Source: Bacteroidota bacterium
GTDB lineage: Bacteria > Bacteroidota > Bacteroidia > Bacteroidales > GCA-2748055
Assembly: GCA_002748055.1 (NCBI GenBank)
Contig: PDRI01000031.1
Coordinates: 1 to 36,921, forward strand
Direction: 5' to 3'
DNA length: 36,921 nt
Shown piece after piece: positions 5,956 through 29,845 of this stretch; the stretch's first letter is position 1, and each line of letters starts with the position of its first letter. Under the pieces are notes generated by a model. That model ran no database searches, had not been told where the DNA came from, and saw only the letters and a list, made by a program, of their open reading frames with translations. The position numbers were made by a program, and so were the translations under genes.

Positions 5956-8913
5956 ATGGCTGAAAGAAAGGCAGTAAGACTAAGTAAGGCGGCGAGGGAG
6001 TTCAATGTGGGCCTCAGTACCATTGTTGAATTTCTCGGGAAGAAAGGCTTTGAATTGGATTTGAATCCGAATTCAAAAATAGCACCGGAGCAGTATGACC
6101 TTTTGCTCGAGGAGTACAGTTCCGACCTCAATGTCAAGAAGGAGTCAGAGAAGCTGACCCTGAAGAACCTCCGTGAGCGCCAGGAGTCCATTACCCTGGA
6201 GGATGTTGCCGGACAGAAGGATGGCGACGACGGGGAAGAGCTTTTGATTACCGATACCACAGCTGCCAAGATTGAAGCAGTTAAAGAGGAAGCCCCTCCC
6301 AGGGAGCCCGTGGTGGCAGAGGAAATTGCTGAAGAGAAGCAGCCGGAAGAGAAGGCTTCAGTGCCTGTTGATGCGGAGCGAGCGGCCGGGAAGGGAAGTG
6401 AAAGCCCCGCAGCCCCTGAGAAGGCAGCGAAGAAAACGTCGAAAAAGAAGTCCGACGAGAAAGCCGCTGCAGCTGTGGTTGATGAGGCCGGTAGCGGGCC
6501 GGTGGAAGAAGCCAAAGCAGATGAGTCTGCTGTTGGCGAAGAGCCTGTGGCTGAAACCGGACCAAAAGTGGTGGGCAGGATCGACCTTGATCAGGTGAAG
6601 AGCAGGAAGAAAAGCAAGACGGCTGAGGCTGCAACTGAAAAGAAGGAAGCGGAGAAGGACGAAGCCATCGCCGGGAAAGCCCCTGCAGCAGAGGAGAAGA
6701 AGCCTGTAGCCGATCAGGAGCCCCCCGCGAAGGAAGAGAAGAGGGAGAAGGAGAAGAAGGCGGAAGATGACAACCTGATTCCGACGCGTTCAGAAAAACT
6801 GAGTGGCCCCACGGTAGTGGGCAAGATTAAACTGCCCGAGAAGAGGGAGACGAAGAAGAAGCCCGTTGCCTCAAGCAAGGACAGCGATTTGCACCTCGAC
6901 CAGAAGAAGAAGCGGAAGCGTATTCGCAAGGATGGCCCCGTGGACATCGGAAATGCGAAAAAGGGAGACAGAAGTGGCAGAAAGCGCGGTCGAAGCAACC
7001 GGCCCGAGGTTAGTGAAGAGGATGTTCAAAGGCAAATCAAGGATACCCTGGCCAAACTGACCAACAAGGGTACCAAGTCGAAATCCTCTAAATACCGCCG
7101 TGAGAAGAGGGATGCGGTTCAGCAGCGTATGATGCAGGAGCAGGAGCAGATGGTTCAACAGCAGAATGTGCTGCAGGTGACCGAATTTGTCTCGGTCAGC
7201 GAACTGGCATCTATGATGAATACCCCCCCAAACCAGGTGATTGCCACCTGTATGAGCCTGGGCTTGTTTGTGTCTATAAACCAGCGTCTCGATGCCGAAA
7301 CCATGGCCATTGTTGCCGATGAGTTTGGCTATAAAATAGAGTTTGTAAGTGTCGATGTGGTTGAATCCATTGCAGAAGAGGAGGACGATCCGGCCGATCT
7401 GGAACCCAGGTCCCCGATCGTTACGGTTATGGGACATGTCGACCATGGGAAAACGAAGCTTTTGGACGTGATCCGTCACGCCGATGTCGTGGCCGGGGAG
7501 GCTGGTGGGATTACCCAGCATATCGGGGCCTACTCGGTGACCCTGGGCGATGGAAGAAAGATTACCTTTCTGGACACACCCGGACATGAGGCGTTTACAG
7601 CCATGCGTGCCCGTGGAGCCCAGATTACCGATGTTGCCATCATTGTGGTGGCCGCCGATGACGGGGTTAAACCCCAGACCGTTGAGGCCATCAACCATGC
7701 CTCGGCTGCAGGTGTGCCCATCGTTTTTGCGATCAACAAGATCGACCTCCCGGCTGCCAATCCCGAAAAGATCAAGGAAGAGCTGGCCAATATGAACTAT
7801 CTGGTCGAGGACTGGGGCGGTAAGTTTCAGTCGCAGGAGATTTCTGCCAAAGGCAACCAGAACATCGAGGAATTGCTGGAGAAGGTGTTGCTCGAGGCCG
7901 AGTTGCTCGAGCTAAAGGCCAACCCGAAGAAGGGAGCCAGGGGCACCATCGTTGAATCGACCCTGGACAAGGGGCGTGGAAATGTAGCCACTATTCTGGT
8001 ACAGGCCGGGACCCTCAGGATTGGAGATGTTGTACTGGCAGGCCAGTACTATGGTCACGTGAAGGCCATGTTTAACGAGAGGGGAAAGAAAATTGATGAA
8101 GCAGGGCCGGCTACTCCGGCACTGATTCTGGGTCTGAACGGTGCACCCCAGGCCGGTGAAAGCTTCAATGTAATGGGCACCGACAAGGAGGCCAAGGAGA
8201 TTGCCAATAAACGTGAACAATTGCAGCGCGAACAGGAGCTTCGGACCAATAAGCACATCACCCTGGACGAAATCGGCAGAAGGATTGCTATAGGCAACTT
8301 CCAGGAGCTGAATGTCATTGTAAAAGGGGATGTGGACGGCTCCATTGAAGCGCTTTCCGATTCCCTGATCAAGCTGAGTACCGAAGAGATTCAGGTGAAC
8401 ATCAAGCACAAGGCAGTGGGACAGATTTCCGAATCTGACATCCTGCTGGCAGCGGCCTCGAATGCCATTGTGATTGGCTTCCAGGTAAGGCCTTCGCTGA
8501 GCGCCAGAAAGCTGGCCGAGAAAGAGCAGATCGACATCCGTCTCTATTCCATTATTTACGATGCCATTGAAGAAGTGAAATCGGCCATGGAGGGCATGCT
8601 CTCGCCCGAGATCAAGGAAGAGATTGTGGGATCGCTTGAGATTCTGGAAACCTTCAAGATTACCAAGGTGGGCACCATTGCCGGTTGTATGGTTAAGGAA
8701 GGCAAGATCAAACGTAGCAACAAGGTCCGGCTGATTCGTGACGGAATCGTCATCTACAGTGGAGAACTGGGTTCCTTAAAGCGGTTCAAAGACGATGCAA
8801 AAGAGGTGGTAAGCGGACTGGAATGCGGACTCAATATCGAGAACTTTAACGACATTAAGGTGGGCGATGTAGTTGAGGCCTTCGAAGAGACTGAGCTGGA
8901 GCGCACACTCTGA
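5956..8913 (+). CDS. infB: Translation initiation factor IF-2 with a long low-complexity N-terminal region
   Basis: GTPase motifs [24 protein letters not shown]-2 N-terminal motif [25 protein letters not shown]. Confidence 0.98.
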
Positions 8914-8959
8914 TCCGTTCCCTTGATTTTACTATATTAGCGTAGCAAAATCTCAGGCT

Positions 8960-9541
8960 ATGTATGCGTTTATTGAAGGGGATTTCGTGGAGAAGTCTCC
9001 GGCCCATCTGGTGGTCAGTACGGGCCACCTGGCCTATCACATTTATATTTCGGTTCACACCTTTTCCCAGCTTAGTGCCAGGGACAGGGGAAGGCTTTAC
9101 CTTCACCAGGTAGTCAGGGAAGATGCTCAGTTGCTCTATGGTTTTGCCACCATGGAGGAGCGGGAGATTTTCAGGCTCCTGATTTCGGTCTCGGGCGTGG
9201 GAGCCAATACTGCACGTCTGATTCTTTCCTCCCTCAGCCCCGGCGAGGTGAGCCAGGCCATCCTCACAGGCGATGTGGGTACTTTGCAGGGAATCAAGGG
9301 GATCGGGGCCAAGTCGGCCCAGCGCATCATAATCGACCTGAAAGACAAGGTGGGAGAGGCTGCCGGCATGGACGAAATATTTTTTGCTCAGGACAATACG
9401 AGCCGGGAAGAAGCGTTATCAGCATTAGTGGCACTGGGTTTTCCAAAGAAGACTGTAGAGAAGGTGCTGAACCGGATTATGAAAGAGCGACCCGACGGAT
9501 CTGTTGAGGAGATCGTTAAGGCCGCCCTGAAGTTTATGTAG
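8960..9541 (+). CDS. ruvA: Holliday junction DNA helicase subunit RuvA
   Basis: MYAFIEGDFVEKSPAHLVV..., HhH motifs ISVSGVGANTARLILSSLSP and LQGIKGIGAKSAQRIIIDLKDK. Confidence 0.95.
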   Translation: MYAFIEGDFVEKSPAHLVVSTGHLAYHIYISVHTFSQLSARDRGRLYLHQVVREDAQLLYGFATMEEREIFRLLISVSGVGANTARLILSSLSPGEVSQAILTGDVGTLQGIKGIGAKSAQRIIIDLKDKVGEAAGMDEIFFAQDNTSREEALSALVALGFPKKTVEKVLNRIMKERPDGSVEEIVKAALKFM

Positions 9542-12500
9542 TGAAGCAGCTGCCAAGGCACATACTCCTGATCCTCTCCGGCCTCCTCCTGGTGGCGGGT
9601 GCCCTTGCCCAGGATAGCACTCTGCATTATCCCTTTAGCACAAAGGGGGCCTATCCCCTCTCGACCACAGCCCTGAGTTCGCCGCTCTATCTGCAGAATC
9701 CTTCAAACATTAAATCCCAGGTGATCTATGATCCCGTAAGCCGGCAATATGTCTTCAGCGAGACGATCGGGTCCTGGAATTACAGGCCGCCCTCGCTGAT
9801 GAGTCAGAAAGCCTACCAGAATTATGCCTTCGAACGAAACATCCGGGATTACTGGAAGCTGAAATCGGGAGGGCAATCACTGGAAGGCCAGCTATCCTTT
9901 ATTCCGCCGCTGAAGGTGGGTGGTGAGGCCTTTGACAGGCTCTTTGGCTCAAACACCATCAACATTGTTCCCTCGGGAAGTGCCGAACTCATCTTTGGTT
10001 TCAACCTCTCGAAGCAGGAGAATTACAATATCAGCGAGCGGCTGCGCAGTGTCCCTTCGTTCACCTTCGATTCGAAAATTATCATGAACGTCGCCGGAAG
10101 CATAGGCGATAAGTTCAACATGGATATATCCTACAATACCGAGGCGACCTTCGATTTCGAGAACCAGACCAAGCTGGAATATACGGGGAAGGAGGATGAG
10201 ATTATTCAAAAGGTGGAGGCAGGGAATGTAAACCTGCCACTCCCGGGCTCATTGATTAACGGAAGCCAAAGCCTCTTTGGCCTCAAGACCGAGATGCAGT
10301 TTGGGAAGCTGAGTGTAACATCGGTCTTTTCGCAGCAGCGCGGGGAGTCTTCGGTGATTAATGTGGAGGGCGGTGCCCAGCTGCAGGAATTTAGCGTTAG
10401 TGTGGATGACTACGATGCCAACAAGCACTTCTTTCTCTCGGATTATTTCAGGGACAATTACAACCAGGCCCTGGCCAATTTGCCGGTCATTACCTCGGAT
10501 GTTGCCATTACGCGTATCGAGGTCTGGGTCACGAATAAAACCACCAATTTCGAGCATGCGAGGAACATTGTTGTGCTGAACGATCTGGGTGAGTCCGAAC
10601 CCAGATCGGGGCTTTTTAGCAGGAATCCCGGAGGGGGTAACCATCCCCGGAATGCCCTCAATACCGCCTATGCCGAGCTCAGCACTACCTACAGCGCTAT
10701 CCGCGATATCAAGAATGCCACCGGCGAGTTGGAAGCAGCCGGTCTTGTGCTTGGTGTCGATTTTGAGAAGATAGAGAATGCCCGTATGCTGTCTCCGCGC
10801 GAATATACCTTCAACGACAAACTGGGTTATATCTCGTTGAACTCGGCCCTGAATACCGACGAGATTCTGGCTGTGGCCTATGAATACACCTATCGCGGTA
10901 AGACCTACCAGGTGGGAGAACTATCTCAGTCCTCGGGTATTTCTGCTCCCCAGTCGCTTATTCTGAAGCTGATTAAGCCCACGAACTTTACGCCCAATTC
11001 CTATACCTGGGATTTGATGATGAAGAATGTCTATGCGCTTGGGGCTTACCAGGTCGAGAAGAATGATTTTCAACTCGATGTACTTTATCGCGACGACAAA
11101 ACCGGCAACTCGGTCAACTATTTGCCTGTCGGGGAATTGAATAAAACGACCTTACTCAGGCTGTTTGATCTCGACAGGATGAACAGCCAGCAGGATCCTT
11201 ACCCCGACGGTGTTTTCGACTACATTCCCGGGGTAACGATCTCCCCGTCGAACGGAAGGGTATTCTTCCCCGTACTGGAACCTTTTGGAGAAGATCTTGC
11301 GAACATACTTCGGGACAGTCTGGACGGGCCGGCGGCCGACAAGGCCATCGCCACCTATGTTTATCAGGCCCTTTACGATTCGACAAAGACCAAGGCCAGA
11401 CAAATTGCCGAAAAGAATAAATTCCTGATAGCCGGAGAGTATTCGTCTTCGAGCTCATCGGAAATCATGCTGAACGCGATGAATGTGCCCCAGGGCTCGG
11501 TGAAGGTAACGGCAGGTGGCCGGGAGCTGGTCGAGGGAAGTGATTACACCGTCGATTACATGCTGGGAAGGGTCACTATCATCAACCAGGGCATCCTGGA
11601 ATCCGGTACGCCTATTCGCATCTCCCTGGAAAACCAGTCGCTGTTTGCCTTTCAAACCAAGACCCTGGTGGGGACCCACCTGAACTATCAGATTTCGAAG
11701 AATTTCAATCTGGGGGCCACAGCCATGCACCTGACCGAGCGACCCCTGACCCAGAAAGTCAATATCGGCGACGAACCCATCTCCAATACAATCTGGGGCT
11801 TGAATGGAAGCTACAGCACAGAGTCGCAGTTGCTGACCACCCTGGTTGATAAACTCCCCTTTCTGGAGACGAAGGTGCCCTCATCGCTGACCGTGGTGGG
11901 TGAATTTGCCCAACTGGTACCCGGGCATTCGAAGGCTATCGAGAAGGAAGGGAATGCCTACATCGACGATTTTGAAGGAAGTGAAACCTCCATTGATCTG
12001 AAGCAGTTTTCTTCCTGGAAGCTGGCTTCCACACCCCGGGGTTATTTTCCTGAGGCCGAGTTGAACAATGATCTGGCTTATGGTTTCGGACGGGCCCGTC
12101 TGGCCTGGTATCAGATCGATCCTTTGCTCGTTCGAGATGAATCCCGGACGCCAGGCCACATCAAGGCCAATCCCGACCTGGTTTCCAACCCTTATGTTTA
12201 CGAGGTATATGAGCAGGACATCTTCCCGAACAAGGAAAACCCCAATGGCATCCCAACGAATATTTCGGTCCTGAACCTTGCTTATTATCCCGATGAGCGC
12301 GGCCCCTACAATTACGATGCCGAACAGATCGATTTTGAAGGCCATCTCCTGAGGCCGAGAGAACGCTGGGGCGGCATCATGCGCGAAATATACTCCACCG
12401 ATTTCGAACAGGCCAATGTCGAGTTTATCGAGTTCTGGCTTATGGATCCCTTTGCAGGCATGCCCGATAACAGTGGAGGAGAGCTCTATTTTAACCTGGG

Positions 12501-15500
12501 GAACATTTCCGAGGATGTGCTCAAGGATTCCCGCAAGACTTTTGAAAACGGCTTGCCCACCTCTGAGCTGGTCGAGAAGGTCGATACCACAGTCTGGGGA
12601 CGCGTTCCGCTCACCCAGGCGCTGGTACAGGGCTTCAGTGCGGGCGATGAAACCCGGCGCTTTCAGGACGTGGGACTGGATGGGCTGAGTTCAGAGGATG
12701 AACTGGATTTCTTCGGATCTACGCCCGACAACTATCTCGGCCGTATCGAAACCCGTTACAACTCCGGATTATTGAGCGAGACGGCCCGCAACGCCATCTT
12801 CGAGGATCCCTCTTCGGACGATTACATGTACTTTCGTTCCACCGAACACGATGCAGCCAGACACGACGTCCTCGACCGCTACAAGCGTTACAACAACCAC
12901 GAGGGGAATTCCCCCAGCGATCTCGACAATCAGGAATCCTTCGCCACCTCGGGCACCTCTTTGCCCGACATAGAGGACATCAACCGCGACAATACCCTGA
13001 GCGAGGGCGAGGCCTACTTTTCTTACCGTGTCAGTTTAAAGCCTTCGGACATGGAGGTAGGACAGAATTACATCGTCGACAAGGTCGTCGACCGGGTTAC
13101 CTACCGGAACGATCAGAAAGACAATGTTACCTGGTACCAGTTCAGAATCCCCATCCACGATTATGAGGAAGTGGTGGGTGATATTTCCGATTTCAACAGC
13201 ATTCGTTTTATGCGGATGTTCCTGACGGACTTTGAGGATATGACGGTACTGCGTTTTGCCGAACTGAATCTGGTACGGGGCGAGTGGCGGCGTTATGCCC
13301 TGCCATTTACCCAGGGTGGTGAAAGCTGGACAGGGGAAGAGCCTGCGGAAGGGGTGCTCGATATCTCGGCGGTAAACATTGAGGAGAATGCCGGGAAGAC
13401 CCCTGTGAATTACGTTCTGCCCCCCGGATTTAACCGGATGATCGATCCCACCCAGCCCCAGCTCAGGCAGTTGAATGAGCAGTCGATTGTTCTGAAAGTT
13501 AATGAGTTGGACGATGGTGATGCGCGAGCTGCCTATAAGACCACCGAGCTGGATATGCGGCAGTACGGGAAGATTCGTATGGAGGCACATGCCGAAGCCA
13601 TTCCCGATATTAACCTGGAGGACGATGAGCTTACGGCCTTTATCCGCCTGGGGACCGACTATCAGAGCAATTTCTATGAGTATGAGGTTCCCCTGAAGCT
13701 TACGCAGCCCGGTAAATACGACAACGACCTTGAAAGTGACCGGGCTGTTGTTTGGCCCAGATCAAACCAGTTTGAGGTGGACCTCGACCAGTTCACAAAA
13801 GTGAAGCTGGCCAGGAACGAAGCGATGAGTCAGCCCGAAAGCGAGGTGTCGCTGAGCTCCGCATTCTGGGAAATCGATAAAAAGGGAAACAAGATTACCG
13901 TTTCCGGAAATCCGACGCTGAGCAGTGTGCGTGTGATTATGATCGGGGTCAGGAATCCCAAGGCCGGAGACAATCCTTTCGGAAATGATGATGGCCTGGC
14001 CAAGTCGGGCGAAATCTGGTTGAATGAGTTGCGATTGACCGATTTCGATGAGAAAGGGGGCTGGGCTGCCCAGGGCCGCGCCACCCTGAAACTGGCCGAT
14101 TTTGCCAATGTAACCCTCGCCGGAAACACCAGTTCGGCCGGGTTTGGCAGCATCGAACAGAGCGTTACCGAGCGGCAGCAGGAACAGTATATTCAGTATG
14201 ATGTGTCTTCCACAGCCCAGATGGGGAAGTTCTTCAAGGAGGAACTGGGAGTTAGCATTCCTGTGTTTACCAGCTATTCGAAATCCATGGTGAACCCTGA
14301 GTACGATCCGCTAAACCCCGATATTTTGCTGACCGAGAGTCTGGCCGCAGCAAATTCAAAGGCCGAACGGGACTCTATTCTAAACTATTCCCAGGAGGTG
14401 GTTGAAAGACGCGCCCTTGCCCTGACCAATCTGAGGGTGAATCCCTCCGGGAAGAAAAAGCACTTTTACAGCCTGTCGAACTGGTCGGCTTCCTTCAGCC
14501 TGAATGAGATGCGCTCCAGCAGTCCGAACATCGAGTACTACAATACCCGTAAAACCAGGGCAAATCTGAGTTACAACTTCAACACCCGACCGAAGAATGT
14601 ACAGCCTTTTAAGAAGGTGAAGTGGCTCAGCAACGACTGGCTCAGGCTGGTCAAGGACTTCAACTTTAATGTTACCCCTTCGCGCATTTCCTTCCGTACC
14701 GACATGGACAGGTACTACCTCGAGAAGCAGGTCAGAAATATCAACAATCCCGACTACATTGTCGAGCCAAACTTCAAGAAGGATTTCGAGTGGAACCGCC
14801 ATTTCGACTTCAAGTTTGATCTGACCAGGAACCTGCGTTTCGATTTTTCATCGACCAATATTGCGCGTATTGATGAGCCGGAGGGCAGGTGGCATCGCGA
14901 CGATATCGATGCCTATGAGATTTACCGGGACTCCCTATGGGCAGCTATTCTGTCGGGGGGAAGAAGCACCCGCTACTTCCACCAGTTCAATGCTTCCTAT
15001 ACGATTCCGGTGAATAAGATTCCGCTGTTCGACTGGATGAGCGCCAATGTGCGTTATGGGGGTACCTACGGCTGGGATGTGGGGCCCATTCTCCAGGATG
15101 AAAGCATCAACCTGGGGAACACCATTAAGAACTCCAATACGGCCCAGTTGAACGGGCAGATGAATTTCGTGAACCTCTATAATAAGGTGGGATTTCTGAA
15201 AGGCATCAACGAAAAGTACAGGAATGCCCGGAGCCGTGAAAGGGAGACGGAAAAACGAAGCAAAACCAGGGTCTATACCAAGGAGAATGTCTTCCTGCGG
15301 GAAGGGCGTAAGCGCTATGTGCCACATAATCTGAAGACAGAGGATATTAAGGTAGAGGTCTTTGACGAGAATCAACAGCCCGTAAAGGTCAGCATGGAAA
15401 TCCTGAGCGACAATCGCATCAGCATCGTTTCCGACAAGGCCATCCGGGGTGCCCGGATCGTGGTTACCGGAACCATTGAAAAGGGCGAAAATCCGCTCAT

Positions 15501-16899
15501 TTTCATTGCCGAATCTACGGTGCGGGCCCTGATGATGGCCCGCACGCTGAATGTTACCTACTCGAAGAGTGGAGGGAGTTTATTGCCCGGCTATCTGCCC
15601 GGTATCGATTACTTTGGTACGCAGATGTACAACGGACAGTTGAATCCGGGCTGGTCCTTCCTTAGCGGCTGGCAGAATTCATCTTATGCTGAGCGGGCTT
15701 TTCAGGCCGGGTTGCTGAGCACCGACCGGGCACTGAACGATGCCTTTACGATGAACAATACAGAGCGGCTTACGGTTAGGGCCAGTCTGGAGCCCTTTAA
15801 CGGGCTAAAGATCGATTTAACAGCCAATCGAATGTATGCTTCCAATCTGTCGGAGTACTATACGGCCAATCCGGATGGTACACTTCCTGCGGATACAGCA
15901 CGTGGAAGGGTCTATAGCGGAAACTTCAGCATGAGCTATCTCTCCATTGGTTCTGCCTTTGAGCGTGTCGGGGAGGAGGTGGAATCGTCCCTTTCTTTTA
16001 ACCGCCTGAAGAATGAATACCGAAAGCAGATTTCCAGGCGGCTGGCCGATGACTATTTCAGGCGTACCGGTCAGGTACTTGCCCAGGATACAGCCGGCTT
16101 CTACGAGGGCTACGGGTCCACCTCCCAGGAGGTCCTCATTCCCGCCTTCCTTGCGGCCTATGGCGGGAAGGACCCGAATACGGTGAGTTTCGGGGCCATA
16201 AAATCGTTGTTGGAGATGATGCCTAACTGGCAGATCCGTTTCGATGGCCTCGGCAAGATCGAGCCGCTGAAGAAGTATGTGAACTCCATCGTAATGAACC
16301 ATTCCTACCGGTCGACCTACAGTGTGGGTTCCTTCATCAACAATCCTTATTTCATTGTCGATTCCATCAGCGGGGTGCCGATTGCCACCGATTTGCAGGG
16401 GAACTTCATTGTAGAGAACGACATCAATACAGTGAGCATTAATGAGAATTTTTCTCCGCTCATCGACCTGAATATGGATTGGAAGAACAGCCTGACAACC
16501 CGGATCGAGTACAAGCGATCGCGGACAGTGGCACTGAATATGGCCAATACGCAGGTGAATGAAGTCAACAGTGTCGAAATTATTTTTGGCGCAGGCTATC
16601 GCTTCAATGAAGTGCCTCTTTACATCAATCAGCGCGAGTTCAACAGCGACCTGAATGTAAGGCTCGATTTTTCGACCAGGAACAACCGGACCGTGATTCG
16701 GAAACTGGAGGACCTCTCGGGCAGTGAAATTACTGCCGGACAGCGTATTTTAAGTATCAAGGCTTCGGCCGATTACAAGTTGAGCGACAAGTTTATTGTC
16801 AGGGTTTTTTACGATCAGCGTCTGACCAACCCCTATATCTCGAACAGCTACAAAAATGCCAACTACAATGTTGGTTTCAGCATGACCTTCACCCTTTGA
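9541..16899 (+). CDS. sprA: Cell-surface protein SprA, T9SS outer-membrane translocon (2452 aa)
   Basis: GTG start, signal peptide LLILSGLLLVAGALAQ; very long beta-rich ORF with SprA-like segments (GSAELIFGFNLSKQENYNISERLR, NMDISYNTEATFDFENQTKLEYTGKEDEIIQKVEAGNVNLPLPGSLI, AYIDDFEGSETSIDL, SGEIWLNELRLTDFDEKGGWA); followed by gcvH. Confidence 0.95.
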   Translation: MKQLPRHILLILSGLLLVAGALAQDSTLHYPFSTKGAYPLSTTALSSPLYLQNPSNIKSQVIYDPVSRQYVFSETIGSWNYRPPSLMSQKAYQNYAFERNIRDYWKLKSGGQSLEGQLSFIPPLKVGGEAFDRLFGSNTINIVPSGSAELIFGFNLSKQENYNISERLRSVPSFTFDSKIIMNVAGSIGDKFNMDISYNTEATFDFENQTKLEYTGKEDEIIQKVEAGNVNLPLPGSLINGSQSLFGLKTEMQFGKLSVTSVFSQQRGESSVINVEGGAQLQEFSVSVDDYDANKHFFLSDYFRDNYNQALANLPVITSDVAITRIEVWVTNKTTNFEHARNIVVLNDLGESEPRSGLFSRNPGGGNHPRNALNTAYAELSTTYSAIRDIKNATGELEAAGLVLGVDFEKIENARMLSPREYTFNDKLGYISLNSALNTDEILAVAYEYTYRGKTYQVGELSQSSGISAPQSLILKLIKPTNFTPNSYTWDLMMKNVYALGAYQVEKNDFQLDVLYRDDKTGNSVNYLPVGELNKTTLLRLFDLDRMNSQQDPYPDGVFDYIPGVTISPSNGRVFFPVLEPFGEDLANILRDSLDGPAADKAIATYVYQALYDSTKTKARQIAEKNKFLIAGEYSSSSSSEIMLNAMNVPQGSVKVTAGGRELVEGSDYTVDYMLGRVTIINQGILESGTPIRISLENQSLFAFQTKTLVGTHLNYQISKNFNLGATAMHLTERPLTQKVNIGDEPISNTIWGLNGSYSTESQLLTTLVDKLPFLETKVPSSLTVVGEFAQLVPGHSKAIEKEGNAYIDDFEGSETSIDLKQFSSWKLASTPRGYFPEAELNNDLAYGFGRARLAWYQIDPLLVRDESRTPGHIKANPDLVSNPYVYEVYEQDIFPNKENPNGIPTNISVLNLAYYPDERGPYNYDAEQIDFEGHLLRPRERWGGIMREIYSTDFEQANVEFIEFWLMDPFAGMPDNSGGELYFNLGNISEDVLKDSRKTFENGLPTSELVEKVDTTVWGRVPLTQALVQGFSAGDETRRFQDVGLDGLSSEDELDFFGSTPDNYLGRIETRYNSGLLSETARNAIFEDPSSDDYMYFRSTEHDAARHDVLDRYKRYNNHEGNSPSDLDNQESFATSGTSLPDIEDINRDNTLSEGEAYFSYRVSLKPSDMEVGQNYIVDKVVDRVTYRNDQKDNVTWYQFRIPIHDYEEVVGDISDFNSIRFMRMFLTDFEDMTVLRFAELNLVRGEWRRYALPFTQGGESWTGEEPAEGVLDISAVNIEENAGKTPVNYVLPPGFNRMIDPTQPQLRQLNEQSIVLKVNELDDGDARAAYKTTELDMRQYGKIRMEAHAEAIPDINLEDDELTAFIRLGTDYQSNFYEYEVPLKLTQPGKYDNDLESDRAVVWPRSNQFEVDLDQFTKVKLARNEAMSQPESEVSLSSAFWEIDKKGNKITVSGNPTLSSVRVIMIGVRNPKAGDNPFGNDDGLAKSGEIWLNELRLTDFDEKGGWAAQGRATLKLADFANVTLAGNTSSAGFGSIEQSVTERQQEQYIQYDVSSTAQMGKFFKEELGVSIPVFTSYSKSMVNPEYDPLNPDILLTESLAAANSKAERDSILNYSQEVVERRALALTNLRVNPSGKKKHFYSLSNWSASFSLNEMRSSSPNIEYYNTRKTRANLSYNFNTRPKNVQPFKKVKWLSNDWLRLVKDFNFNVTPSRISFRTDMDRYYLEKQVRNINNPDYIVEPNFKKDFEWNRHFDFKFDLTRNLRFDFSSTNIARIDEPEGRWHRDDIDAYEIYRDSLWAAILSGGRSTRYFHQFNASYTIPVNKIPLFDWMSANVRYGGTYGWDVGPILQDESINLGNTIKNSNTAQLNGQMNFVNLYNKVGFLKGINEKYRNARSRERETEKRSKTRVYTKENVFLREGRKRYVPHNLKTEDIKVEVFDENQQPVKVSMEILSDNRISIVSDKAIRGARIVVTGTIEKGENPLIFIAESTVRALMMARTLNVTYSKSGGSLLPGYLPGIDYFGTQMYNGQLNPGWSFLSGWQNSSYAERAFQAGLLSTDRALNDAFTMNNTERLTVRASLEPFNGLKIDLTANRMYASNLSEYYTANPDGTLPADTARGRVYSGNFSMSYLSIGSAFERVGEEVESSLSFNRLKNEYRKQISRRLADDYFRRTGQVLAQDTAGFYEGYGSTSQEVLIPAFLAAYGGKDPNTVSFGAIKSLLEMMPNWQIRFDGLGKIEPLKKYVNSIVMNHSYRSTYSVGSFINNPYFIVDSISGVPIATDLQGNFIVENDINTVSINENFSPLIDLNMDWKNSLTTRIEYKRSRTVALNMANTQVNEVNSVEIIFGAGYRFNEVPLYINQREFNSDLNVRLDFSTRNNRTVIRKLEDLSGSEITAGQRILSIKASADYKLSDKFIVRVFYDQRLTNPYISNSYKNANYNVGFSMTFTL

Positions 16900-21797: not shown

Positions 21798-24700
21798 TTA
21801 GCGCCTTCCATTGTTTTGGTTAATCCTTCGGGCAAGCATGGCTCCTTTCCCCATTGCCTGGGCTGTGAAAGCAATGGCCTTTCGCAGAATATCGAAATAG
21901 AGTGCAAGGTAGAGCAGGAAGGTGCTCAGCCAGATGACGCTCAGATTAAAAAGCCGGGTGTCGATTCGGAGCTTGCCAAGATGTTTTTCAGGTGCATAGA
22001 AATGTGCCCTTCCATACCTGGAGCGGGGAATCATGTAAATGGGTTCGAATTGCCGGACCAGCTTATCGCCACGTTCCACGGTCTTTTCCAGAACGTTCCG
22101 GTTTAACAGCATATTGGAGAGCTGCTTGTTGTCGTTGTCGTCCCGAAGAGCCGAGAAGGCTTTCAGCCCTCCCAGTTCTTTCACCAAGGCCTCCTGCACT
22201 TCTGTACGTTTGATATTGAGGGCCTGGGTCTGCTTCCGGAGATCTTCATTCAGGCGGTCGAGGCTGGCATGCATCCCGGCAGCTGTGGAATCGTCTGGCT
22301 CGATACCCAGCTCGGAGAAATAGCCGAAGAGTGCAGCAACCTTTTCTCTTTTTTGTTTGCTAAGGCTGCTTTCACAGGCATTGATTTTTTCTTTGAGCGT
22401 GGGGATGTAAAAGCTTGACAGATAGCGTAGATTACTGATTTCCTGGTCGATATCAAAAAAGTTTCGTTCGTAAGGATTTCTTTTATACTGGTCAACTGCC
22501 AGGGCTTCAAAAGCCCATCGGGAGGTTAGCATCTCGCCAATCAGGGGCACATATTCGTCGTGGGTCATGCTCTTATGCAGCTTGTCGAATTTTACCAGTA
22601 CCCCGCTGAACAGAATCTGAGGAATGAGCAGAAAAGGGATCATGATGTAAACCGTAATGACCGAATTGAAAGCACTTGAAATATTGAGGCCCAGAATATT
22701 TGCGAAACAGGCCGTTGCAAATAGAATACACCAGTAATTGTAGGTCATTCCCTGAATCTCAAAAATCTGATTGCCAATCAGGACATAACTAATGGTCTGG
22801 ATGGCCGAGATCGCAAACATGATCAGGATTTTGGCATTCAGATAGCTGAAGCGACTCAGGTTCAGAAAGGATTCCCTCTGTAGCAGCTTACGGTCCTTAA
22901 TGATTTCTTCCGAACTGATCGTTAGCCCAATGAAGAGGAAGACCACTACACTCATCAACAGGTAGGAGGGGAGGTTTTCGTTGTTCCTGAAGACATAGGC
23001 GCCAGGATCGTCGCGCGTGCCGCTGAAATACTTGGTGAATATTCCCAGGATGACAGCCAGTAAAGGGGCTTCCAGCATACTGATAAGCACGTACTGGGTA
23101 TTGCTTATTTTGGTGAGGAAATCCCTTAGCAGGTAAATCTTCATCTGGGCCCAGCGCCTGGGAATCCGGAAGTGGTTCTCGGGCAGAGGGCTGGGTTTCA
23201 TGCTTGCCGACGGATGCTGTGGGTTCCCGTACTTTTTGAAAAGCTCGAACCACTCCTTGGCATTCACACGGCGATTTCGGGAGAGCCGTCCGCGTTCATT
23301 TACCATCTTGGCCTCGATGATTTGCAGGACCTGGTCGGGATCGACATTCCCACAACGGGGACACTGGTCCTCCGTCGCATTGGCATGGTTGCTTCTGGTC
23401 TTGAAATAGACCACGGCTTCGGAGGGATTCCCCGAATAAATCTGATAGCCCCCTGTATCAAGGAAGACAATCCGGTCGAACATCTTATACAGGTTCGAGG
23501 AAGGTTGATGGATGTTTACAATGACCAGCTTTCCCTTGTAAACCTGTTCCCTCAGGAGGTTCATTACAACCTCGGAGTCGACGGAGGACAGGCCCGAGGT
23601 GGGTTCATCAACAAAAAGAACCGAGGGTTCCCTGATTAGTTCCAGGCCTATGTTGACCCGTTTTCGTTGCCCGCCACTGATGACTTTGCTGAGGGGGTCC
23701 CCCACTTTCAGATCTCGGATATCCCATAGCCCAAGGGACTTGAGTACTTCTGTTACCCTGGCTTCCATCTCTTCCTCACTGCTTCCCCCCATACACAGGC
23801 GGGCGTTGAACCAGAGGTTTTGGTACACCGTCAGGTCGTCCATCAGGAGGTCGTCCTGTGGAATGAAGCCGATTACACCCTGAATTGCTTTTCGTTCTTC
23901 TTTATTGTAAATATTGTGCCCGTTGATCAGGATTTCGCCGCTAGCCGGTTTGAGCTTGCCATTGAGTACATTCAGCAAGGTTGATTTCCCAACTCCGCTG
24001 CCCCCCATGATGCCGATCAGCCGTCCCGACTCCTCCTCCAGGTTGAATTCCTGGATCCCGTTCTTGCTGTTCTTAAAGCGAAAGACAACATCCCTGGCCC
24101 GAAAGTTGATCTTTTTGGCAATGGCAGCGGTGGAGAAAACGCCGGCCACATCCGTGTAATAGATGGGGCTGATGACCGAACCCCGCAGCGAGGCTCCGTG
24201 TTCAAACGCATAGGCCATTCCCGGATGGAGGTGCTGGCCGTTCAGGTAGAGGTCTCCCTTGCCATTGTAACGCATGATGTGTGCATTGACACTGGGTATA
24301 TGCAGGAAAGAGAGCCTTCCATCGAGCTTTTCCTTTCGAATATGATGAATGCCTTCCGGTCCTGCCTCTTTTTCATTGTTCACGATCAGGACATGGTCCT
24401 TGCGTGGCACCTCACTCAGCGAAAAGGCGATGAAGTTCAGAATGTCCCTGAATTCCTCATCCGGTATATTGAAGGAAGCAGCAACGGTTTCGAGGAAGTC
24501 AAGTTCGGTATCCCGAATTTCAATGCCGTAGGCAATGTACTCGACCAGTTGAATGATTACATATACCTTTTGGCGCTGTTCCAGTTCCAGATTGATTTTT
24601 TCACAAATACCCAGAATCCGCACTGCGGTAAGCGAAGTCCGTTTCCTTCGTTTAATGCTGCCTTTGGCCAGATTGTCCTGGTGATAGAGTCGGAGGTAGT

Positions 24701-24863
24701 GTTCGAACGACTCCATATATTTCTCTATCAGCTCATTGCTAATGAGTCTTGAGAGGAAGTTCCGGATGATGGAACGTTCTTTTTCGGAGATTTGCTGAAC
24801 CTCATCTACATCTACGATTAAAGCGAAAAGCTGCATCAGCGCTCTCAGAATAACTTCACTCAT
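21798..24863 (-). CDS. ABC transporter fusion: TerB-like N-terminal domain, FHA-like/beta-rich segment, ABCG-type ATPase and ABC-2 permease
   Basis: Walker A MGGSGVGKSTLLN, signature ISGGQRKRVNIGLEL, Walker B SVLFVDEPTSGLSS; several TM segments at C-terminus; N-terminal helical region FALIVDVDEVQQISEKERSIIRNFL...; CPRCGNVDPDQVL after the ATPase. Confidence 0.88.
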   Translation of the reverse strand: MSEVILRALMQLFALIVDVDEVQQISEKERSIIRNFLSRLISNELIEKYMESFEHYLRLYHQDNLAKGSIKRRKRTSLTAVRILGICEKINLELEQRQKVYVIIQLVEYIAYGIEIRDTELDFLETVAASFNIPDEEFRDILNFIAFSLSEVPRKDHVLIVNNEKEAGPEGIHHIRKEKLDGRLSFLHIPSVNAHIMRYNGKGDLYLNGQHLHPGMAYAFEHGASLRGSVISPIYYTDVAGVFSTAAIAKKINFRARDVVFRFKNSKNGIQEFNLEEESGRLIGIMGGSGVGKSTLLNVLNGKLKPASGEILINGHNIYNKEERKAIQGVIGFIPQDDLLMDDLTVYQNLWFNARLCMGGSSEEEMEARVTEVLKSLGLWDIRDLKVGDPLSKVISGGQRKRVNIGLELIREPSVLFVDEPTSGLSSVDSEVVMNLLREQVYKGKLVIVNIHQPSSNLYKMFDRIVFLDTGGYQIYSGNPSEAVVYFKTRSNHANATEDQCPRCGNVDPDQVLQIIEAKMVNERGRLSRNRRVNAKEWFELFKKYGNPQHPSASMKPSPLPENHFRIPRRWAQMKIYLLRDFLTKISNTQYVLISMLEAPLLAVILGIFTKYFSGTRDDPGAYVFRNNENLPSYLLMSVVVFLFIGLTISSEEIIKDRKLLQRESFLNLSRFSYLNAKILIMFAISAIQTISYVLIGNQIFEIQGMTYNYWCILFATACFANILGLNISSAFNSVITVYIMIPFLLIPQILFSGVLVKFDKLHKSMTHDEYVPLIGEMLTSRWAFEALAVDQYKRNPYERNFFDIDQEISNLRYLSSFYIPTLKEKINACESSLSKQKREKVAALFGYFSELGIEPDDSTAAGMHASLDRLNEDLRKQTQALNIKRTEVQEALVKELGGLKAFSALRDDNDNKQLSNMLLNRNVLEKTVERGDKLVRQFEPIYMIPRSRYGRAHFYAPEKHLGKLRIDTRLFNLSVIWLSTFLLYLALYFDILRKAIAFTAQAMGKGAMLARRINQNNGRR

Positions 24864-24956
24864 GGAACTTTGAGTTTCGGGGTTTTGATAAAGGTTATGT
24901 AAGATAGTTTTTTTTAGTTATTTTGGCTTTTCAACGGGGCTCAACTTCTGAACCAT

Positions 24957-25469
24957 ATGCCAGATACGGCTAAAGTCATACAATACCGGGGTGTTATCAA
25001 TTTTGAGACCATGGACATGGTCCTGAATCAGCTGCGTGATAACCCCGTTTTTTACGAGATGCCCAAACCTGTTCGGAAGCGCCTGTATAGCGCGCTGGCC
25101 GAGTCGATGGACAATATCTTTAAGTATGCCGCCAGGAGCGAAGAGCTTGAATCACAGGATATTGGAATGCCTCAGGTGGCGGTGGAAAGGGATGGAGATC
25201 GCTTCAGCATTGTGGCTGGAAACATGATCCTGAATGACCAGATCGATGAGTTGCAGTTTAAGCTTGACCGGGTAAATCAGCTTGATCTGGAGGCTCTCAA
25301 GTCGCTTTACGAGGATGTGATTACCCGCGAGACCAAAGCATCCGACAGGGGAGCCGGACTGGGTCTGATTACCATGGCCATGCGCACGGATCATGATATC
25401 AACTATCGCTTCGAGTCGATTGACGAAGACCATTCATTTTTTAGTATGCAAATCATAATCAAGGGATAA
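24957..25469 (+). CDS. SiaB-family (DUF6272) histidine-kinase-like protein kinase
   Basis: N-box-like ALAESMDNIFKYA and G-box-like DRGAGLGLITMAM; immediately followed by a SiaC-like gene. Confidence 0.82.
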   Translation: MPDTAKVIQYRGVINFETMDMVLNQLRDNPVFYEMPKPVRKRLYSALAESMDNIFKYAARSEELESQDIGMPQVAVERDGDRFSIVAGNMILNDQIDELQFKLDRVNQLDLEALKSLYEDVITRETKASDRGAGLGLITMAMRTDHDINYRFESIDEDHSFFSMQIIIKG

Positions 25470-25473
25470 ACCC

Positions 25474-25872
25474 ATGGAAAAACTAGTTATTGAAGCTACA
25501 CCCAACACCCCGGGCATTGTCCTTGATCCAGTTGAAGGGAAATTTAGTTTCAGCGGAGAATCCCGTCCGGAGAATGTCAGGAAGTTTTACCTTCCCGTAC
25601 TGGAATGGCTGGAGTCCTATACCGCAGAGCTAAAGGCCTCAGACAAGCCTGCGAAGGGCATGGAATTTCATTTCAGTTTTGAGTATTTCAACTCGACTTC
25701 TTCCAAGTTCATACTCGATATTTTCAAGTTGATCTCCCAGTTAAATGAGGCCGGTCTTGAGCCGGGTGTCCACTGGTACTACGAAGAGGACGATGAGGAT
25801 ATGCTTGAGGTGGGCGAAGAAATGTCGCGTATGTCGAAACTGCCTTTCAGCTTTATAGTGACCGAGGATTAG
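25474..25872 (+). CDS. SiaC-family (DUF1987) regulatory phosphoprotein
   Basis: LVIEATPNTPGIVLDPVEGKFSFSGESRPENVRKFYLPVLEWL and FSFEYFNSTSSKFILDIF (phosphosite-region motif). Confidence 0.85.
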   Translation: MEKLVIEATPNTPGIVLDPVEGKFSFSGESRPENVRKFYLPVLEWLESYTAELKASDKPAKGMEFHFSFEYFNSTSSKFILDIFKLISQLNEAGLEPGVHWYYEEDDEDMLEVGEEMSRMSKLPFSFIVTED

Positions 25873-25876
25873 TTGC

Positions 25877-28000
25877 TCAGACTTTGAGCCCCATCACCAG
25901 GACGTCGTCGATCTGTTCAATAGTGCCTTTCCATTCGAGAAAGTGTCGTTCCAGCATCTTCTTTTGTTCGGCCATGGAATCTGTTTGCATGCTGCTGAGG
26001 ACTTTTCTGAATCTGCCGGCACGGAAGGTTTTTCTGTCGGGTCCGCCCAGCTGGTCGACATAGCCGTCCGAGAAGAGGTAGATCTGGTCGCCTTTGTTCA
26101 GTTTCGTTTTCTGCAGGCGGAAGTCCGTTGCTTCCTGTTCATATATGCCTATTGGCATGCGGTCGGCCCGGAAGTGATGAAAAGCGTCTTCCTTGTCCTG
26201 ATCTGCTTCGAAAAGGTACAAGGGCCTGTTGGCACCTGCAAACTGAAGTTCCCCTTTTTCCGGATCGGCAATGATCAGGGCAATTTCGATGCCATCGCGG
26301 GCTTCGTATCCATGGCCAGTCTGGTGCAGAGAGGCGATGACCAGCGACCGGAGGAGGGTCAGGATTTCATTAGCAGACAGCCCTTTGTGCCGATTGATGA
26401 TTTCGTTCATGGAGGAAATACCCAGCATGCTTAGCAGGGCTCCGGGTACGCCGTGTCCCGTGCAGTCGGCTACCGCAACCAGGGTTCGTGCCCCTTCTGT
26501 GGCTACCCAGTAGTAGTCACCACTAACAATATCCCTTGGTTTGAAGAGAACGAAGTGCTCACTAAAGGCGTTTTTCAGGCCTTCCAGCGGTGGGAGCATG
26601 GCCATCTGTATGCGTTCGGCGTAGCGGATGCTGTCGAGGATCTGTTCATTCTGATTCACAATGGTGTCCTTCTGCAACCTGGTCAGGTCGAGCTGGGCCT
26701 CAATCTCTTCCTTTTGCAGCACAACCTCATTTGTTCGTTCTTTGACCTTCTTTTCAAGGTCGCGGTTCATGGCCGATATGTTTTCCACATAGGAATGGAT
26801 TTTCCTGGTCATCTGGTTATAGCCTTCGGCCAGTTCACCAATTTCGTCATTGGTGCGTACCACACAATATGCTTCGGTATCATCCCCTTTTGTGTTTCGG
26901 ATGACAGTCTGCAGTTCTCTAACCGGTCTTGTCACTCCCTCATTGGTCCAGCGGATGAAGGCGAGGATGTAAACCAGGGAGACCAGGATGCCGGTGCCGA
27001 TTCCAGACAGCATAATAACAGCGTCGATAACGTTTACATAGCTGAGCCGGTTGTAGGTTTTCATGCTCTCGATGCCGTCTGCTTTTCCCAGATTGCTCCA
27101 TTGCCCGATCAGGATTTCCCGCTGTTGATCGGAGAGTTCAGTGATTCCCAGCTCCTTTACAGGGCTGAGGCTCAGCACCAGATAGACGATCACAATGAGC
27201 AGGGGCAGAAAGGTGGTCATTCCACTGGCCAGGATGAGCCTGTCCTTAATGCTTCCCCGCTTTCTGCCGAAGATATTGCCCTGCAGCTCCCCGGGCGAAT
27301 AAATAATGTCCAGATAGCGCAGTTGAACCCGGTGTTTCTGCCAGTAGAACACAAAGAGGAATTGGAGCAGGGTGGATACGACAACCAGGTAGAAAAACTG
27401 CCGGAACAGTTTATGTTCAAGTGCGTCACCCTGTCCTTTTCCACTGAGGATATAGACCAGGGCGAAAACCGCACCTACCAAAGCAGGAGTGGTCAGGATC
27501 AGGGCGTTGATGATCGGGGTCTTAAGCAGATGCTTTTTACACCAGTGATGATGCTTGTCGCTGATTTCTCTGCCCTGGCGCTTCCATTTAAAATAGCGTT
27601 TGAAGCGATGGTTATAGATCCATCCGACCAGATAAGCGGCCACGCTGAGCAGAGCGAGCAGGCTAAAATAGACAACAAAGGGACCTTCATCGCCCAGGGG
27701 ATTGATGCCGGTACTTTCTGTTGTTTCGTCCTCGATCGTCCCGGACTCTTCCGCAAAGCTACTGTCAGCGGATGCTTTGTCGAGCTCAAGTGTTGAAGCA
27801 GGCAGGCTGTCTGCTTCCTGCAGGCCATTGTTCGTACCTCCGACAAAGTCACTCTTTGGCTGCTTCCTGGCGGCTATTTTGGGAATATTCTGGATAGCCA
27901 GGAACCCCAGAAAAGGCATCACCAGGAAGAAATAGAGCAGAGAGGAGGGAAAATAAATCCTGAGTCCGAAGTATGAAGGGAAGCCTTGTTTTCGAGCCAT
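25877..28000 (-). CDS. Multi-TM HAMP-SpoIIE/PP2C serine phosphatase (SiaA-like)
   Basis: About six hydrophobic segments, HAMP-like TRPVRELQTVIRNTKGDDTEAYCVVRTNDEIGELAEGYNQM, coiled coil, PP2C motifs FKPRDIVSGDYYW, VADCTGHGVPGALLSMLG, GDQIYLFSDGYVDQ. Confidence 0.9.
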   Translation of the reverse strand: MARKQGFPSYFGLRIYFPSSLLYFFLVMPFLGFLAIQNIPKIAARKQPKSDFVGGTNNGLQEADSLPASTLELDKASADSSFAEESGTIEDETTESTGINPLGDEGPFVVYFSLLALLSVAAYLVGWIYNHRFKRYFKWKRQGREISDKHHHWCKKHLLKTPIINALILTTPALVGAVFALVYILSGKGQGDALEHKLFRQFFYLVVVSTLLQFLFVFYWQKHRVQLRYLDIIYSPGELQGNIFGRKRGSIKDRLILASGMTTFLPLLIVIVYLVLSLSPVKELGITELSDQQREILIGQWSNLGKADGIESMKTYNRLSYVNVIDAVIMLSGIGTGILVSLVYILAFIRWTNEGVTRPVRELQTVIRNTKGDDTEAYCVVRTNDEIGELAEGYNQMTRKIHSYVENISAMNRDLEKKVKERTNEVVLQKEEIEAQLDLTRLQKDTIVNQNEQILDSIRYAERIQMAMLPPLEGLKNAFSEHFVLFKPRDIVSGDYYWVATEGARTLVAVADCTGHGVPGALLSMLGISSMNEIINRHKGLSANEILTLLRSLVIASLHQTGHGYEARDGIEIALIIADPEKGELQFAGANRPLYLFEADQDKEDAFHHFRADRMPIGIYEQEATDFRLQKTKLNKGDQIYLFSDGYVDQLGGPDRKTFRAGRFRKVLSSMQTDSMAEQKKMLERHFLEWKGTIEQIDDVLVMGLKV

Positions 28001-28135: not shown

Positions 28136-29845
28136 TTAGTGACAGGCCTCCAGATAAGCCAGGACGAAGACCGCTGAGGCGTTCCGGTTCAGGCAAACCT
28201 CATTCGATGCAAAACTGGCCTGGACATCCTCAAAGGCCTTGGCAGGTAGCTCCGATTGGTAGTCCAGGTATTGCCGGTCCTGTTGGGCCTTGTTCGGTCC
28301 CCCTGTTACAAGGCCGGGCACGGGAGCAACATTGTGGTCGGCCCCGCTGGGCCGGTGATGGGGATTCATAACCTGCTTCGACCCGAAACCTGTCAGAAAG
28401 GAATAGCCACAGGCATTCTTCCCGAAGATGTAATCGGTGTTTCGCAGGGCGCCATTGAGGTAGCTTTTTTCCGCACTCAGGTGGTGGGCAATGCAAAGGA
28501 TCTGGGCCTGGTTGAGAAGGTCACTGTTCGAGCCCCATTCAAAATGGTCCAGGCTGATGCCATAGGGGCTGTCTTTGATGGCCTGCAGGAGGGTATCTGC
28601 AAGGGCCAGGTGTTTGGTGCAGAGCTCCTGGGCCATTTCCCCGGGCAGCCTGTCGCGATTGATCAGGAGGCTGTGGAATCCCATGTTCCGGGCATAGAAT
28701 TTCCAGGGCGTGCTTATCAGATGCTCGTAGGGCAGCGGATTCTCCCGAATAAAGTTCAGGTATTCTTCCTCTCCCGTGGTGAGAAAGAGTTCGGCAGCTG
28801 CCCGGTAAAAGTCATCATCGAAGTCATCATCACCATATTCCCCGGTGGTCACATCAGGGGGATTGAGGTAGATCACATCCGGATGTCGGCGTGCCCAGTT
28901 CCAGGCACTTCGGGCCGAGAGTACAAGGGCCCGGGCCCATTCCGGATCGCTGGTTTCAAATACCCTGGCAGCCTGCGCCAGGACCGCTGCGTAGCTGAGG
29001 GTCGCGAAGGTTCCCTTTCCAATGATGTAGCGTGTAAGCGAATCATCTTCGGGCATGACAAAGTCGCAGAACTCAAGCGAGCTCAGCTTGTGAAAAACCC
29101 CGCCATCCATATCCTGCAAGGTGACGAGCCAGTCGAGTTCGTAGCGCAGTTCATCGAGCAGGTCGCTGCGACCGTTTCCGCTCTCGGGTATATTCAGCCT
29201 TCCATCCGGGATGGCCTCCGGGTAAATCTCAAGCAGACTCAGCATTTGTCCCAGTGCCATAGCGGCATTTACGGTGTATTTCCCATAGTCTCCGGCGTCG
29301 TACCAGCCACCGGGTGAACGGAGACAGCCTTCCTCATGTCCGCTGGAGGGATGGAAGGGGCATTCCATGTCGAAATGACCGCCGGCACGTTCAAAGATAT
29401 CCCCGTACTGCACCTCAATGGGCATGGAGGCGCGCTGAAAATAGTAGCTTTTGATACTGGCATTTAGCGCAGGCTCATAGACCTTTTCTCTGATTTCGAA
29501 GGGCAGGGATCCCAGTCCGTTTTCCAGCAGAATGGTATAGCGTCCCGGCCTTTTTACCCGGCTAAAGTCGCCCTGAAGCACATCTTCGCCCGATGCTTCC
29601 CACCGGCCTTTCCAATGGAGCCTTCCTCTGTACACCCTTCTGCCCTGGAAGTTGAGCACACAGAATTTTTCGACATCCATGTCGGTGACCAGAACTTCCT
29701 TGATGCTACCGGGATAGTAGCCAAGCTGGTTCACTTTGATATGGCTTGCCCCCATGTCTTCTTGTTCGACTATTGGTTTTTGGCAGGCAGTGAATCCAAG
29801 GGCAAAGCCTATGGCAATCGCAAATGCGGGTGAAGTCGTTCTCAT
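28136..29845 (-). CDS. Glycoside hydrolase family 9 (endoglucanase-like) lipoprotein with N-terminal Ig-like domain
   Basis: Lipobox-like GFTAC; CelD_N-like IKVNQLGYYPGSIKEV; catalytic GGWYDAGDYGKY; HHRPSGADHNVAPVPGLVTGGPN; SFASNEVCLNRNASAVFVLAYLE. Confidence 0.92.
   Translation of the reverse strand: MRTTSPAFAIAIGFALGFTACQKPIVEQEDMGASHIKVNQLGYYPGSIKEVLVTDMDVEKFCVLNFQGRRVYRGRLHWKGRWEASGEDVLQGDFSRVKRPGRYTILLENGLGSLPFEIREKVYEPALNASIKSYYFQRASMPIEVQYGDIFERAGGHFDMECPFHPSSGHEEGCLRSPGGWYDAGDYGKYTVNAAMALGQMLSLLEIYPEAIPDGRLNIPESGNGRSDLLDELRYELDWLVTLQDMDGGVFHKLSSLEFCDFVMPEDDSLTRYIIGKGTFATLSYAAVLAQAARVFETSDPEWARALVLSARSAWNWARRHPDVIYLNPPDVTTGEYGDDDFDDDFYRAAAELFLTTGEEEYLNFIRENPLPYEHLISTPWKFYARNMGFHSLLINRDRLPGEMAQELCTKHLALADTLLQAIKDSPYGISLDHFEWGSNSDLLNQAQILCIAHHLSAEKSYLNGALRNTDYIFGKNACGYSFLTGFGSKQVMNPHHRPSGADHNVAPVPGLVTGGPNKAQQDRQYLDYQSELPAKAFEDVQASFASNEVCLNRNASAVFVLAYLEACH

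Follow-up and report, generated by a model that had tools for sequence, protein, structure and literature searches.

A SiaABC-type phospho-switch linked to an ABCG-type transporter gene in a Bacteroidota lineage with almost no GGDEF proteins

The window analysed here, a stretch of 36,921 nt from contig PDRI01000031.1 of a Bacteroidota bacterium (assembly GCA_002748055.1), carries genes for a SiaB-family kinase, a SiaC-family phosphoprotein and a SiaA-like phosphatase, accompanied by a transporter gene that is divergent from the SiaB gene (Table 1). Spacings of 4 nt were found both between the SiaB and SiaC genes and between the SiaC and SiaA genes, and the ORFs, strands and spacings agreed with a preliminary description of the locus, in which a SiaB-like and a SiaC-like gene, 4 nt apart on the + strand, converged with a SpoIIE gene on the – strand. 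This order, with transporter and SiaB genes divergent, SiaC following SiaB, and SiaA convergent with SiaC, was kept wherever a same-genus orthologue of the window SiaC lay on a contig of sufficient length, and most genus orthologues have 34–140 bp between the transporter and SiaB genes, the choice of start accounting for one case of overlapping ORFs. The phosphatase gene is adjoined by a gene for a glycosyl hydrolase family 9 protein of the cellulase type with a CelD_N domain (28136–29845), a protein whose sequence cluster was not found beside the genus orthologues. Elsewhere in the window, a 2452-aa ORF (9541–16899) resembles the type IX secretion translocon SprA/Sov and is followed by a gcvH-like gene, both recognized by eye only.

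Table 1. Coordinates of the genes and features of the module within the window
Feature	Position	Strand	Basis
ABCG transporter with TerB-like/FHA-like N-terminal region, 1021 aa; conserved partner gene, proposed effector	21798..24863	-	
ABCG-type transmembrane domain with helical, probably periplasmic insertion, residues ~570-989	21897..23156	-	
ABC ATPase domain of transporter, residues ~253-490	23394..24107	-	
FHA-like beta-sandwich of transporter, residues ~154-228	24180..24404	-	
Helical TerB-like N-terminal domain of transporter, residues 1-146	24426..24863	-	
Divergent intergenic region transporter/SiaB, 93 bp	24864..24956		
SiaB-family Ser/Thr kinase, DUF6272, 170 aa	24957..25469	+	Pfam, NCBIfam, PDB match
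SiaC-family phosphoprotein, 132 aa	25474..25872	+	Pfam, PDB match
Codon of S74, aligned with P. aeruginosa SiaC phosphosite T68	25693..25695	+	
SiaA-like phosphatase, 707 aa: six TM helices, HAMP, SpoIIE/PP2C	25877..28000	-	Pfam, PDB match, hydropathy
SpoIIE/PP2C catalytic domain of SiaA-like protein, residues 503-706	25883..26494	-	
Six-TM membrane sensor region of SiaA-like protein, residues ~23-346	26963..27934	-	hydropathy, phmmer

The identification of a SiaABC-type switch was borne out by Pfam matches above the curated cut-offs and by best PDB matches to the P. aeruginosa proteins. The kinase matched DUF6272 (E 1.6e-32) and the NCBIfam family SiaB_fam_kinase (NF038262; 119.4 bits, cut-off 85), with P. 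aeruginosa SiaB as its best PDB match (6kko_A, E 5e-8). The phosphoprotein matched the SiaC family (E 3.5e-34) and the structures of P. aeruginosa SiaC (6kko/6kkp/7e6g, E 2e-13), and the phosphatase matched SpoIIE (E 2.2e-22), HAMP (E 3e-6) and the PP2C domain of P. aeruginosa SiaA (6k4e, E 1e-28). The cut-offs of the NCBIfam equivalogs of SiaABCD (NF038263/4/5) were not reached (SiaA 207/700, SiaB 58.7/225, SiaC 71.3/150). The catalytic motifs, already taken to be intact, were all present: E49 and N53 of the kinase were each kept in 173 of 175 SiaB-family ORFs, the other two showing gaps, the GAGLGL box was complete, and the phosphatase preserved the PP2C motifs KPRDIVSGDYY, ADCTGHGVPGA, SDGYVDQ and QIDDV. 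E49 aligned with E61, the predicted catalytic residue of P. aeruginosa SiaB (PMC7647112).

The phosphatase had been described as carrying a multi-TM sensor of about six helices, and hydropathy indeed placed six TM helices before the HAMP domain (residues ~21–39, 108–126, 167–185, 202–220, 263–281 and 328–346), no known sensor domain being detected in the protein. Among the proteins compared here by phmmer, only the same-genus orthologues had this sensor, whereas P. aeruginosa SiaA has two membrane-spanning regions (PMC7647112).

In P. aeruginosa, SiaB phosphorylates and SiaA dephosphorylates T68 of SiaC, and SiaC must be unphosphorylated to bind and activate SiaD (PMC7647112, PMC8457831). T75 or S76 had been put forward as the phosphosite of the window SiaC, and both were ruled out because the alignment placed T68, the mapped phosphosite of P. 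aeruginosa SiaC (PMC7647112), at S74 instead. Serine occupied the equivalent site in all 14 window-type SiaC proteins and threonine in nearly all SiaC of the two other transporter-linked types, which suggests that the phosphosite has been retained with serine in place of threonine. By analogy with P. aeruginosa, S74 would be the residue phosphorylated by SiaB.

The earlier statement that no GGDEF protein lies beside the module turned out to hold well beyond the window. No GGDEF match was found in the whole assembly (2.53 Mb, 82% complete), in which the positive controls were detected, and the domain was absent from 27 of the 28 genomes of the family, the single match being weak (27.5 bits). 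An order-wide draw of 295 genomes contained 4 with both SiaC and GGDEF, 118 with SiaC only, 8 with GGDEF only and 165 with neither, SiaC and GGDEF showing no association; 118 of the 122 SiaC-bearing genomes were thus GGDEF-free. These observations largely remove a cyclase elsewhere in the genome as a possibility. In the genome itself, six matches to SiaC, three to SiaB and twelve to SpoIIE were counted. Across the order, many genomes show an extreme expansion of SiaC, with at least 14 scored copies per genome and up to 43 candidates, and almost no GGDEF.

The output of the switch, left unassigned in the preliminary description, can now be given a candidate, since the conserved partner across the class is the divergent ABCG transporter gene, one gene beyond the region then considered. 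When genes were clustered around 85 SiaC and related loci, a transporter family of about 1020–1045 aa stood out among the neighbours, being found in 42 of the loci. The conserved neighbours c37 and c38, present near some SiaC genes, were dropped as partners, as they resemble TamB-like and TsaD housekeeping genes. A profile of the transporter N-terminal alignment, built from SiaC-linked members, was then searched in the 295 order genomes, and at E<=1e-60 both genes were present in 110, SiaC only in 12 and the transporter only in 1 (Fisher p 7e-66, for genomes that are not independent draws and with shared ancestry uncorrected). At 1e-30 the corresponding counts were 111, 11 and 9, with 164 genomes carrying neither. 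Among 297 genomes drawn from the phylum, exactly five were found to have the transporter (E<1e-30), the same five that carry SiaC without GGDEF, and the 13 SiaC genomes with GGDEF, all of other classes, carry no transporter.

Moreover, among 80 named genome loci picked by SiaC alone, a set that overlaps the others in part, the transporter lay within 1.5 kb in 40 and SiaB in 70, and GGDEF was near SiaC in none, with a profile that does detect four known GGDEF loci. Transporter-linked SiaC genes were found, for example, in Labilibaculum euxinus, Marinifilum, Carboxylicivirga linearis, Anaerophaga thermohalophila and Cesiribacter, the linkage crossing orders and families. Reciprocally, when 32 transporter genes were taken systematically along the ranked list, 21 were found to adjoin SiaC (chance ~0.03 each), and about a third of the sampled genes had no SiaC neighbour, some of them lying at contig ends.

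Three gene orders were distinguished among all the transporter genes examined: convergent (54), with the transporter convergently downstream of SiaC; operon (31), with the transporter as fourth gene after SiaA-SiaB-SiaC and gaps of 8–156 nt; and divergent (14), as in the window; a further 15 had no SiaC neighbour. The gaps between SiaC and transporter were mostly of 2–200 nt. The nearest neighbour belonged to the same gene-order type for 97/99 SiaC and 97/99 transporter sequences, and the SiaC phosphosite motif was type-specific (YFNTSSSK in 53/54, YFNTASSK in 31/31, Ser at the site in 14/14). SiaC and transporter distances were correlated (r 0.83), linked genes sharing their history and mirrored trees being partly expected.

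A second SiaB-SiaC-transporter module was found in the same genome (contig C110), near which small genes resemble, by eye only, those for an HPt and a STAS protein (locus L112, 11675–12360). On contig G000:C155 (locus L115), two SiaC paralogues with IDTAS/VDTAS sites flank a 269-aa protein (8749–9231, 9261–10070, 10110–10481), the adjoining genes resembling a polysaccharide export/synthesis locus. At operon-form loci (L148–L150, L182, L188, L191, L193), genes for the methylation enzymes CheR and CheB and for a membrane protein with a GAF domain lie before SiaA, which at L148 has a Cache-HAMP-GAF-PAS-SpoIIE architecture, and the transporter is followed by a lipoprotein and by a small exported protein that matches no Pfam family. 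Fusions were also observed, namely SiaB-SiaC (L160, L161, L190), SpoIIE-SiaB (L151) and a tandem DUF6272 protein (L153).

From its domains and structural model, the linked gene is predicted to encode an ABCG-type exporter. The Pfam domains ABC_tran and ABC2_membrane place the ATPase before the transmembrane domain in one chain, and the full AlphaFold2 model (pLDDT 84) matched the structures of ABCG1, ABCG2, ABCG5/8 and plant ABCG proteins with target-length TM-scores of 0.66–0.81. Residues 1–250, modelled separately (pLDDT 87, pTM 0.84), formed a helical domain followed by a small beta-sandwich. The helical domain resembled 2h5n, a P. gingivalis protein of unknown function (Foldseek prob 0.99, E 0.1), and Pfam TerB below the cut-off (E 0.09). 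The Foldseek matches of the beta-sandwich were mostly FHA domains with partial coverage (prob mostly 0.9–1.0, E 0.008–0.3). Of the residues compared with the phosphothreonine-binding Arg and the Ser-x-x-His of FHA domains, R183 and H195 are not conserved in the transporter family and N208 is. The domain was therefore called FHA-like only; a canonical phosphothreonine-binding FHA was ruled out by these residues and by the serine at the site of the window SiaC.

Other classes of the phylum offered a view of different SiaC partners, GGDEF proteins adjoining SiaC at three loci (L137, L140, L141) and histidine kinases at three others (L136, L138, L139). A strict SiaD-type docking stalk motif, [KR][ILVM]x[RK][IL][SG]DxxQ, had only six matches in 1.28 million translated residues, all in these six SiaC-linked genes, so that linkage to SiaC can serve as a good guide to the SiaC effector. 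The histidine kinase lies directly downstream of SiaB-SiaC, carries the stalk motif KITRISDxTQ and is probably SiaC-controlled. Like the module of the window, these loci combine a SiaB-SiaC pair with a presumed effector gene adjoining SiaC, but their effectors carry the strict motif, which is absent from the transporter; if SiaC binds the transporter, the interface must therefore differ. The transporter segment SVKVLKICxxIN, which resembles the K-V-x-R-I-S-D-R-Y-Q of SiaD, was rejected as a docking site, being not above chance when a PSSM was compared against 28 neighbour families, and the isolated stalk peptide had no match in the PDB.

We consider it probable that in this class the SiaA-SiaB-SiaC Ser/Thr switch has the ABCG-type exporter, and not a diguanylate cyclase, as its effector. 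In such a scheme, SiaB would phosphorylate SiaC on S74, a direction taken from P. aeruginosa, and the six-TM HAMP phosphatase, when its membrane sensor is stimulated, would take the phosphate off again. The phosphorylation state of SiaC would decide its docking on the cytosolic TerB-like and FHA-like N-terminal region of the exporter, presumably by the unphosphorylated form, and docked SiaC would gate the export of a probably hydrophobic substrate; the contact, the gating and the nature of the substrate are all conjectural. Direct docking is accorded less confidence than the effector role itself, as the transporter lacks the strict motif.

The same lack of a motif would also fit a transporter acting upstream in the same pathway, exporting or clearing a ligand or lipid read by the SiaA membrane sensor, with SiaC directed to some other target. 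The embedding of that sensor in the membrane and the variety of SiaC targets implied by three partner classes in the phylum (GGDEF proteins, histidine kinases with the strict motif, transporters) speak in its favour, but the pairing of SiaC and transporter persists in the convergent type, where none of 56 genes has a PP2C gene nearby, which ties the transporter to SiaC/SiaB and not to the sensor; a large N-terminal region preceding the ATPase domain also tells against this explanation, which we regard as unlikely. Less probable still is a general partner switch that acts by way of STAS proteins, sigma regulators or further SiaC paralogues, beside which the transporter would be incidental synteny. 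Cross-talk would be possible in a genome with six SiaC, three SiaB and about a dozen SpoIIE matches, and in the convergent type synteny extends to housekeeping neighbours; incidental synteny, however, would not be expected to survive three gene orders, to cross orders and families and to be matched by the genome-wide presence and absence of SiaC and transporter. Control of a diguanylate cyclase encoded elsewhere, as in P. aeruginosa, is hardly credible: the genome is 82% complete, and a GGDEF protein does occur in 4 genomes of the order that carry SiaC, but the searches of this genome, of the family and of the order point the other way.

All parts belong to known families, and their combination is a new variant of the SiaABC module. 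It shares with SiaABCD of P. aeruginosa the HAMP-PP2C membrane phosphatase, the SiaB kinase and a SiaC phosphosite at the start of helix 2, but SiaABCD forms one operon and includes the GGDEF protein SiaD, whereas here SiaA is convergent, an ABCG transporter is the linked gene in place of any GGDEF protein, and the phosphosite is Ser instead of Thr (T68). Rv1747 of M. tuberculosis is likewise an ABC transporter whose chain includes FHA region(s), and its regulation is linked to protein phosphorylation (PMC5549992); there a Hanks-type kinase is involved and here a SiaABC module, with one degenerate FHA-like region after the TerB-like domain. The ABCG half-transporters (ABCG1/2/5/8, plant ABCG16/25) have the same ATPase-TMD order and fold, from which the present protein differs in being bacterial, in its additional N-terminal region of 250 residues and in a large helical insertion that precedes the last TM helices.

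In the open-access literature searched, DUF1987 occurs in a single paper, and we found neither a link between SiaC-family (DUF1987) proteins and an ABC transporter nor a described SiaC output other than c-di-GMP synthesis. SiaC proteins are widespread, and one transporter family tracks them almost one to one in a GGDEF-poor lineage, which provides a testable effector for hundreds of unassigned SiaC modules. As a tentative generalization, SiaABC may, in a large part of the class, have lost its tie to c-di-GMP and come to gate, post-translationally and by direct binding of SiaC, dedicated ABCG exporters of the TerB/FHA-like kind. These findings suggest that SiaC is a general phospho-adaptor, rewirable to an enzyme, a histidine kinase or an exporter, and, if the exporter is indeed its effector, the phospho-switch would act on transport and not on second-messenger synthesis or transcription.
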